Part shown: one piece after another, positions 1,981 through 5,267 of the stretch
How the letters are laid out: every line of letters starts with the position of its first letter
Position numbering within the stretch: the first letter of the stretch is position 1
Origin: Candidatus Zipacnadia bacterium
Lineage (GTDB): Bacteria > Armatimonadota > Zipacnadia > Zipacnadales > Zipacnadaceae
Direction: 5' to 3'
Length of the DNA: 34,400 bases
NCBI GenBank assembly: GCA_029821195.1
Contig: JALGTU010000022.1
Span: forward strand, 1-34,400
Program-made: the position numbers and the translations under genes
The notes under the pieces: generated by a model
What the model was told of the DNA's origin: nothing
Seen by the model: only the letters and a program-made list of their open reading frames with translations
The model's database searches: none

Positions 1981-3033
1981 CTAGGCCGACGAGCTGAAAG
2001 GCAAGTCGTCGAGTTCTTCCAGGTAGCGGGCGGTGCCCAGCACCACACAGTTCATCGGCTCCTGGGCCACGTAAACAGGTATGTCGGTCTCGGCGCTGAT
2101 GAGTTGGTCCAGGCCGCGCAGCAGCGAGCCGCCGCCGGCCAGAACGATACCCCGGTTCATAATATCCGCAGCCAGTTCCGGCGCGGTGGCATCCAGGGTT
2201 TCCTTGACCACCTCGACGATGGCCGCGACCGGCTCGGCGCAGGCTTCCCGGATCTCCGAGGAGGTGATCACCACCTTGCGGGGCAGACCGGTCACCAGGT
2301 CCTTGCCCCGTACCTGCGTCGTGGTTTCCTTGGGCAGCGGGAAGGCCGAGCCGATGCTGATTTTGATCTGTTCCGCGGTGCTCTCGCCAATATACAAGTT
2401 GGCCTCGTGGCGCAGATACAAGGCAATAGCTTCGTCAATCGCCTCGCTGGCAATGCGCAGTGAGCGCTGCGTGCAGATGCCGCCCAGCGAGATCACAGCT
2501 ACCTCGCTCGTGCCTCCACCGATATCAACGATCATATTGCCCACCGGCTCGGAGACGGGCATGCCGGCACCGATCGCCGCAGCCATTGGCTCATCCATTA
2601 TCCGGATTTCCCAGACCCCGGCCTGGCGGGCGGCATCCTGCACCGCGCGCCGTTCCACCTCGGTAACCCCGGCAGCAACACCGACGACAACGGACGGATG
2701 TAGGAACACGCGGCGGTCGTGCACCTTGCGGATGAAGTGCCGAATCATCGCCTCGGTGACGTCGAAGTCGGCGATTACGCCTTTGCGCAGCGGACGGATT
2801 GCCGATATCCGCGCCGGAGTGCGCCCGACCATCCGCTTGGCGTCATTGCCGACGGCGAGCACTTGCATGGTATCGTCATCAATGGCCACCACCGAAGGCT
2901 CATTGAGCACAATGCCTCGGCCCTTGACGTACACGAGGGTATTGGCCGTACCCAAGTCAATACCCATATCGCCGGGGCTGAGCACACTGTGCAGCGCCCT
3001 GCGCCACGCCCATTGAAATATGCTCCGTCTCAC
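1981..3033 (-). CDS. mreB: Rod shape-determining protein MreB (bacterial actin)
   Basis: I chose the GTG at 3033, which has AGGAG 6 nt upstream and gives a normal 350-residue MreB. An ATG 72 nt further upstream is in frame, but the extra residues do not look like MreB. Actin-fold ATP-binding motifs are clear: phosphate loop 1 DLGTANT at about 26-32, phosphate loop 2 VDIGGGTSE at about 169-177, and the adenosine motif GIVLAGGGSLLRG near 305-317. MreB polymerises under the inner membrane and positions lateral wall synthesis. It heads the mreB-mreC-mreD cluster. A candidate promoter lies within the maf remnant upstream. Confidence 0.97.
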   Translation of the reverse strand: MRRSIFQWAWRRALHSVLSPGDMGIDLGTANTLVYVKGRGIVLNEPSVVAIDDDTMQVLAVGNDAKRMVGRTPARISAIRPLRKGVIADFDVTEAMIRHFIRKVHDRRVFLHPSVVVGVAAGVTEVERRAVQDAARQAGVWEIRIMDEPMAAAIGAGMPVSEPVGNMIVDIGGGTSEVAVISLGGICTQRSLRIASEAIDEAIALYLRHEANLYIGESTAEQIKISIGSAFPLPKETTTQVRGKDLVTGLPRKVVITSSEIREACAEPVAAIVEVVKETLDATAPELAADIMNRGIVLAGGGSLLRGLDQLISAETDIPVYVAQEPMNCVVLGTARYLEELDDLPFSSSA

Positions 3034-3155
3034 ACTGATCTCCTGTTGATCTGCGATATCGCCCCCGGATGATTGGGGGGAATTGCCCGGGTGCGAACAC
3101 GCCACCCCCTAGCCAACACACGGTGACCGCCGCACGGCTCTGCGCAGCCCAGCGT

Positions 3156-3519
3156 CCCCCGAGCCTTGACCACCCTGGCTATCGGCAGGCCCACTACATT
3201 ATAATACGAACCCCGAATCCACTCAATAAAGCTTGCCACTGGCCACCACGGTATCAGCCCCCAGAACGAGCCGCTCCGGATGACGAAGGGCCACCCACAC
3301 GGCCTTACGTACGGCTTGGCGCATAGCCAGCCGGTATGGTGAGCCGGCGAGAGGACGCTGCCACTCCACCGGGCAGGGCACCACTTGGTAGGGGATGCCA
3401 GCTAACTTCAGGAGGCGGGCCCGCCGCGCGGAGGCTGCGGCCAGGATCAGCTGCTTCCTGGCTACCTGCGGAGGAACTAGCTCGCACTCAAACTGTCGTC
3501 GCCTGCTAGTGGGAAGATG
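3156..3519 (-). pseudogene. maf: maf (nucleoside-triphosphate pyrophosphatase), internal deletion and frameshift
   Basis: Maf proteins are house-cleaning nucleotide pyrophosphatases of about 190 residues. Here the N-terminal part is present in one frame: [19 protein letters not shown], then GIPYQVVP and LVLGADTVV. That frame stops at 3223. The C-terminal signature IRGSYYNVVGLPIARVV follows at once in another frame (about 3239-3156). About 80 central residues, including the LSGRTH-type and AGAYGIQG-type segments, are missing. The join lies near 3235-3243, and the frame changes there. The start is unclear; a GTG at 3519 is the best candidate, 9 nt after the ABC1/UbiB stop. It cannot make a normal Maf fold, so I call it a pseudogene, unless the join is an assembly error. 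Confidence 0.82.
3198..3226 (-). promoter_or_regulatory. Candidate promoter for mreBCD inside the maf remnant
   Basis: On the minus strand TTGAGT (3226-3221) is followed after 17 nt by a perfect TATAAT (3203-3198). This would place the transcript start about 158 nt before mreB. The TATAAT coincides with the TAT-TAT-AAT codons of the conserved SYYNVV segment of the decayed maf gene. The -35 box matches at 4 of 6 positions. Confidence 0.45.
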
Positions 3520-3527
3520 CACGGTAG

Positions 3528-5267
3528 TTATAAGCGCCCGGAGCGAATAATGGAGTAGAGTAACCAAACGCCCATTACTGCGCCGACTATAATGAAGGTA
3601 ATCGCTACGGGGCTACCCACTGTGCTAACCGCCTGCTCGCTGGTCAGAATCATTGCCGCAGCAATGATTACCGCTGCTACGATAATGCTGAACGCCAGGC
3701 GGTTTGCCATGGTGCTGAATTGGTGCAGAGGCCGATCGGTCTGCTCCAGTTCCACCCGCATCTTTAGACCATTGACCTGGGCACGCAGGAGCAGCTCGGA
3801 GAGCTGCCTGGGCAGACGGACGACATAGTGGCTCAGTTCGCGGCTGAAGCTGCCCAACTCATCCAGAATAGCCCTGGGCATCAGCCGGCGGAGCAGCGAA
3901 CGCTGCGCGGCATCGGCGGCCAGCGCGTCAAAGTCGAACTCCGGGTCAAGCTGCAGGCAAATGCCCTCCGCGATCGTCATCGCCCGCAGCAGGCTGATCC
4001 ACGCCGGCGGCATGCGGACGTCGTGAGTGAGCAACAGACCCATTAGATCATCAAACAGCTCGGACATCACCACCCGCCCAGCGCTTAACCCCCAGTAGCG
4101 AGATAGCTCCTTGTCTATATCCAGTCGCAGCCTCTGTAGGTCGGTCTTGTCGGAAATAACTCCGATACTCGTGATGACGTTGACCATCTCATTAGTATCT
4201 CCGGCAAGCAAGGCGCTAAGCATCTGGAGCATGCTGCTGCGTAGTTGCGGGCCAGCGGTGCCCACGTGCCCAAAGTCAAAAAACGCTATGCGACCATCAG
4301 GCATTATCTTTAGGTTGCCAGCATGAGGGTCGGCGTGGAAAAAGCCGTCGTCAATGACCTGCCGCAGCATTATCTCCGCGAATGCCTTGGCCACCTCGGC
4401 CCGGTCAACCTTCAGCTGCGCCAGTTCCTCTTCATTGTTGATACTGACTCCCACGATTAGCTGCGAGGTTAGCACTCGGCTGGCGGTGTACTCTTCCACG
4501 ACCCTGGGCACCACCGCGCGCGGCTCATCGGCCAGGTTCTCCCGCATCCTCTCGGCGTTGTGCCCCTCACGGGCGAAGTCCAACTCGTTTCGCAGGATAT
4601 GTGCGATTTCATCCGCCCATCCAACCAGATCATGATCTTGAGCCCACTTGCTGTGCCGCCGCGCCTGCCGGGCTCCCCAACGCATCACCGCCAGGTCAGT
4701 TTCAACCAGCTCCACCACTCCCGGACGTTGCACCTTCACTGCTACTTGCTCGCCACTGGGCAATTTTGCCGCATGCACCTGGCTCAACGAGGCCGAACCA
4801 AGCGGTTCGGGGGCAAATTCAACGAAGAGTTCCTCCAGCGGGGTCCCCAGTTCCGCTTCGATCACCGCCTTGGCCTGCTCGAACGGGAACGGCGGTACCT
4901 CCTCCTGCAGCTTACGCAGCTCCTGGATATACTCCTGCGGCACCAGATCGGGCCGCGTGGACAGCACTTGGCCGATCTTGATGGCGGTCGCGCCGATCTC
5001 CTCCACGGCTAGACGCAGGCGGACGGCCATCTCCAGCCCAGCGGTCGCGGCGTCAACTTTGCCATCCTGTTTGTCCTGGCGGCGCAAGAACCTATCCAAC
5101 CCCACGCTGTGCATTATCGAAGCGAAGCCAAATTTGACGAATATCGCCGTCACGTAGCCAGCCCGCCGCATCCACCGGCTGGCCCGGCTGCCCAGGTCTT
5201 CCGCGAAGGTTTTGCGCTCAGGTGACGATGTTGAGTCCGGCGCCACAACTGCCACACCTTCCCTCAT
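3528..5267 (-). CDS. ubiB: ABC1/AarF/UbiB-family kinase-like protein
   Basis: The 579-residue protein carries the full ABC1/UbiB motif set: KIGQ at about 97-100, the Ala/Ser-rich nucleotide loop ASLSQVH at about 159-165, AVKVQRPG with the ATP-site lysine at about 176-183, the ELD of the ExD motif at about 228-230, HADPHAGN at about 311-318 and DFG at about 331-333. Two C-terminal membrane helices (about 530-550 and 555-575) anchor it. Relatives support ubiquinone or other isoprenoid-lipid metabolism through an atypical ATPase activity; the lipid served here is unknown. The ATG at 5267 overlaps the upstream radical SAM gene by 50 nt. Internal GTG starts at 5255 or 5246 would reduce this and sit closer to a GGAAGG site. 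Confidence 0.93.
   Translation of the reverse strand: MREGVAVVAPDSTSSPERKTFAEDLGSRASRWMRRAGYVTAIFVKFGFASIMHSVGLDRFLRRQDKQDGKVDAATAGLEMAVRLRLAVEEIGATAIKIGQVLSTRPDLVPQEYIQELRKLQEEVPPFPFEQAKAVIEAELGTPLEELFVEFAPEPLGSASLSQVHAAKLPSGEQVAVKVQRPGVVELVETDLAVMRWGARQARRHSKWAQDHDLVGWADEIAHILRNELDFAREGHNAERMRENLADEPRAVVPRVVEEYTASRVLTSQLIVGVSINNEEELAQLKVDRAEVAKAFAEIMLRQVIDDGFFHADPHAGNLKIMPDGRIAFFDFGHVGTAGPQLRSSMLQMLSALLAGDTNEMVNVITSIGVISDKTDLQRLRLDIDKELSRYWGLSAGRVVMSELFDDLMGLLLTHDVRMPPAWISLLRAMTIAEGICLQLDPEFDFDALAADAAQRSLLRRLMPRAILDELGSFSRELSHYVVRLPRQLSELLLRAQVNGLKMRVELEQTDRPLHQFSTMANRLAFSIIVAAVIIAAAMILTSEQAVSTVGSPVAITFIIVGAVMGVWLLYSIIRSGRL

Follow-up and report, generated by a model that had tools for sequence, protein, structure and literature searches.

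The window, a stretch of 34,400 nucleotides, comes from a genome of Candidatus Zipacnadia (here G000; a 3.0 Mb assembly, 95% complete), a class of the Armatimonadota that has been described from marine sediments (PMC10290634). The features discussed here all lie on the minus strand. A gene for an ABC1/UbiB-type kinase (3528..5267; Pfam ABC1, E 2e-75) is followed by the remains of maf, by mreB (1981..3033; Pfam MreB_Mbl, PF06723, E 4e-140), by mreC (1114-1959; with a match to Pfam MreC) and by a probable mreD (598-1086), which is without a Pfam match and is named from its position. The probable start of mreB is a GTG at 3033, and AGGAG lies just ahead of it at 3044-3040.

What is left of maf consists of two abutting pieces in different frames. 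The N-terminal piece (3238..3453) covers positions 1-74 of the Pfam Maf profile (PF02545; E 5e-11), and its frame runs into a stop just beyond the deletion junction; its start codon is uncertain, the candidate being a GTG near 3528. The C-terminal piece (3165..3236; FIEWIRGSYYNVVGLPIA) covers profile positions 159-182 (E 3.5e-4), so that positions 75-158 (~84) are absent. Comparison with two relatives, G003 and G002, places the junction at 3228..3245, where ~84 codons and the reading frame are gone. We find no working Maf in G000 in the form of one continuous open frame over the domain, and a profile search of the whole 3.0 Mb assembly, of the kind that the earlier note had called for, revealed no second Maf elsewhere. 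The claims of that note that maf has lost its middle, with its two ends now abutting in different frames, and that the remnant sits in its ancestral place upstream of mreB are thus borne out. We reject an assembly artefact as the cause of the deletion, since the six other genomes of the genus, which were assembled separately, show either an intact maf (G002) or other truncations at the same place.

Within the C-terminal piece, and exactly as the earlier note had described it, lies a candidate promoter directed at mreBCD. The proposed -35 box, TTGAGT (3221..3226), is separated by 17 nt from the proposed -10 box, TATAAT (3198..3203), which is formed by the Tyr-Asn codons of SYYNVV. With 10 of 12 matches the pair fits a sigma70-type promoter, defined here as two hexamers near TTGACA and TATAAT that are 16-18 nt apart, and it is the only sigma70-like site within 2900-3700, where 0.2 would be expected. 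In G000 the maf deletion stops ~7-10 nt short of the -35 box, on its upstream side. The predicted untranslated leader of mreB (3034..3191) would run from ~7 nt past the -10 box up to the start codon, the position of the start site being taken from the sequence; no RNA element in Rfam matched in the window, this leader included. Across the whole genome of G000 there are 38 TTGA-N19-TATAAT sites, compared with none when the pattern is read backwards, and this type of promoter is therefore in use in the organism. Two features count against reading the site upstream of mreB as a promoter: nearly all of the 38 genomic sites have TTGAC, the TTGAG of the present -35 box being found in only two of them, and the leader would reach ~158 nt. 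We also considered a TTGACA that is conserved just before mreB in five relatives (G001, G002, G004, G005 and G006), and rejected it as a promoter, as it is part of TTGACAGGAGG in the ribosome-binding region and no -10 box follows it.

We compared G000 with six more genomes of its genus and eight more of its family. The maf-mreB locus can be read in 13 of these 15 genomes, G000 included, from four genera; the contigs of the other two (G007 and G013) stop just upstream of the mreB copy nearest to that of the window, which makes the locus uninformative there, and neither incomplete genome contains a Maf match anywhere. An intact maf lies upstream of mreB in five genomes, namely G002, which belongs to the genus of G000, G010, and G009, G012 and G014 (two other genera). 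In six, maf is truncated: in addition to G000, these are G003, in which the first half of the gene is lost, and G001, G004, G005 and G006, in which a short N-terminal piece and ~27 C-terminal codons remain. The pieces are joined in frame and without a stop in G004 and G005; in G006 an in-frame TGA and a Gly-to-Ser change both fall between the boxes and leave these untouched; and in G001 maf has eroded further, its N-terminal piece being garbled. We note that in G001 the -35 box is also immediately preceded by a near-tandem duplication of 9 nt (ACAGTCTGC ACAGTCTGG; L055, 80-112). Lastly, maf is unrecognisable in G008 and G011, where little except the two boxes remains between ubiB and mreB, the stop of the kinase gene being followed by the boxes within ~45-65 nt. 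Loss of maf seems to be common in the family. The UbiB-type kinase gene precedes maf in G000 and G005. It is gone from this place in G003 (L057), G004 (L058) and G006 (L060), where a radical-SAM gene stands directly before the maf remnant, and erosion thus extends to everything that lies ahead of the mreB promoter.

All 13 readable loci, whether maf is intact, truncated or absent, carry TTG-N20-TATAAT with identical spacing. We counted changes by parsimony on a tree of mreB (one gene), using an alignment anchored on TATAAT. The six genomes of the genus in which maf has decayed have no change at the 12 box positions; per site, third codon positions of mreB have 1.32 changes, the DNA immediately upstream of the boxes 1.0, that downstream of them 0.87 and the spacer 0.41. 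When all eight genomes that lack an intact maf are taken together, the count is one change at the 12 box positions, as against ~1.4-2.0 changes per site in the surroundings and 2.1 at mreB third codon positions; in 20,000 random samplings of 12 columns, no set was equally conserved. The hexamers are, at the level of the aligned sequences, more conserved across relatives than what surrounds them. Anchoring on TATAAT could inflate this conservation only for G008 and G011. The alignment of G011 with the intact mafs of G009 and G014 beats all 300 shuffles, and for G014 it falls in the same register; that of G008 alone with an intact maf falls short of significance. When G008 and G011 are compared with each other, agreement is 6/7 and 10/12 in and beside the boxes and ~25-36% elsewhere, and the spacer between the boxes varies freely.

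The earlier note had raised the possibility that coding DNA was reused as a promoter once maf had decayed. The comparison with sister genomes that it proposed favours a promoter within maf, and the SYYNVV codons do hold what is very likely the promoter of mreB; the timing it implied, however, does not stand, since both boxes are already found at the same spacing in the intact orthologues upstream of mreB (G002, G009, G010, G012 and G014), which represent three genera. We therefore reject a promoter made only after the decay of maf. The association of TATAAT with this part of maf appears to be particular to the family. Where Y-N-V-V-G-L-P is encoded, the site reads TATAAT in 9/9 genomes of the family and in 1/10 other Mafs among 291 genomes of the phylum (Fisher p 1e-4, uncorrected for kinship); a further TATAAT match, in G234, is not in a Maf. 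The other families of the order mostly have Y-F-N or Y-S-N as the motif and lack TATAAT, and outside the family in general the site reads YFN/YSN or TACAA[CT]. No comparable site is present in 11 maf-mreB intervals outside the family, although chance alone would provide few in any case, and among more distant mreB loci a recognisable maf end lies near mreB in one only, without the site. We thus reject the site as a general feature of neighbouring maf and mreB genes. Judging from this distribution, the promoter most likely dates back at least to the ancestor of the family.

The losses of maf fall into four structurally distinct states (that of G000, that of G003, that shared by G001, G004, G005 and G006, and that of G008 and G011), and more than one loss has occurred independently with the boxes kept; those of G000 and G003 are independent because each genome keeps a part of maf that is missing from the other. 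The minimum is four structurally distinct deletion events, the exact number hinging on the placement of G002. The mreB tree by itself forces two to three label changes, fewer because a tree is blind to differences between deletions. It puts G002, with its intact maf, among G001 and G004-G006, with moderate support within this group. Either recombination returned maf to G002, or the deletion in G001 and G004-G006 happened more than once, as the short imperfect repeats at its junction would permit. Deletions of three of the four types come to within ~17 nt of the -35 box on its upstream side, which is as expected if the promoter halts the erosion.

We consider it highly probable, from comparative sequence evidence, that the 3' end of maf holds a sigma70-type promoter of mreBCD that was born in a working maf and has been kept by selection through repeated losses of that gene. 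In such a scheme the C-terminal codons of Maf would form TTGAGT-N17-TATAAT, a promoter for the downstream mreBCD genes; this would have originated inside a working maf, at the latest in the common ancestor of the family; selection would have retained both hexamers while different deletions removed maf several times; and RNA polymerase with the housekeeping sigma factor would start transcription of mreB near 3191. The maf remnants, the excess conservation of the boxes and their greater age than the decay are the parts of this account that the sequence comparison establishes. With less assurance, though leaning in its favour, we suggest that the internal promoter freed mreB from maf transcription and so allowed the repeated loss of maf; every such loss would have been pared down towards the border of the -35 box, and in G008 and G011 the promoter would be the sole fossil of maf.

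The locus might instead be an ordinary maf pseudogene, a piece of neutral debris in which Tyr-Asn merely happens to be spelled TATAAT, a natural choice, and the losses are too recent for the motif to have gone. Y-Y-N can indeed be written with TATAAT, TAT AAT being expected about once in nine under the codon use of the window, and most of the truncated genomes belong to one genus. We nevertheless regard this as improbable: sites beside the boxes have accumulated changes at near-neutral rates and the boxes have not, nothing of maf except the boxes is left in G008 and G011, and in the intact mafs the Tyr codon beside the hexamer is TAT or TAC, whereas the Tyr-Asn pair within the hexamer is invariably TAT AAT. 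It is also conceivable that what is conserved is a short peptide made from the remnant, such as a mini-Maf encoded by G004 and G005, whose deletions keep the frame and leave no stop in the way; 10/21 changes in the tails of the truncated genomes fall at third positions, a slight excess. This we hold to be the least probable of the alternatives. A peptide is ruled out as the general reason for the conservation because the frame is broken in G000, interrupted by a stop in G006 and wholly lost in G008 and G011, and the N-terminal piece of G001 is garbled.

It is hardly more plausible that a promoter arose anew after each loss, or that the conserved DNA is the site of another protein, although random DNA is described as gaining promoters easily (PMC5906472) and TTGAGT departs from the TTGAC usual in G000. 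The position, spacing and box sequences in the decayed loci equal those in the intact mafs, and the rarity of TTGAG among the genomic sites makes it unlikely that the same variant arose independently. A site for another protein agrees poorly with hexamers and a spacing that fit sigma70, and with a spacer that is free to vary in G008 and G011. We thus favour retention by selection of a promoter inherited from maf.

The ingredients of this account are already known, in that intragenic promoters can serve the next gene and pseudogenes can keep their signals. In Mycobacterium tuberculosis, for example, recA is reported to contain a promoter for recX (PMC3062782). There, as is predicted here, transcription of a gene begins at a sigma70-type site among the codons of the gene before it; in the known examples, however, the host gene is intact, whereas here it has been lost repeatedly and the promoter has stayed. 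In Bacillus subtilis the arrangement is maf-radC-mreBCD, and mreB has its own promoter besides upstream transcription (PMC4630621). Maf likewise lies upstream of mreB in that organism and mreB likewise has a promoter of its own, which is a prediction here, but radC stands between the two genes, and the description consulted reports no promoter in the C-terminal codons of maf. The pseudogenes of Mycobacterium leprae, as presented in another study (PMC2753549), retain transcription signals, which resembles the present case in that signals outlast dead genes; in M. leprae the pseudogene itself is transcribed, whereas here the element points outward at a neighbour and its conservation can be measured. 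The literature that we searched contains no report of an mreB promoter embedded in maf, and no full series that runs from an intact gene with its promoter through independent truncations to bare boxes. Our findings suggest how codons of an enzyme can become a regulatory sequence of an unrelated gene for cell shape, and the series within the family offers a reason why fragments of dead genes, though short, persist. They also carry a warning that a retained gene tail need not imply a retained protein.

We note in addition that G000 has three mreB-like genes (C138:1984-3054, C109:2479-3471 and C180:52948-53925; loci L061, L081 and L051), those other than the mreB of the window being ~52% and 33% identical to it, and that a set of three is found in most genomes of the family. 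Lastly, the 38 enriched TTGA-N19-TATAAT sites of G000 are material from which a promoter map of this uncultured lineage could readily be drawn.
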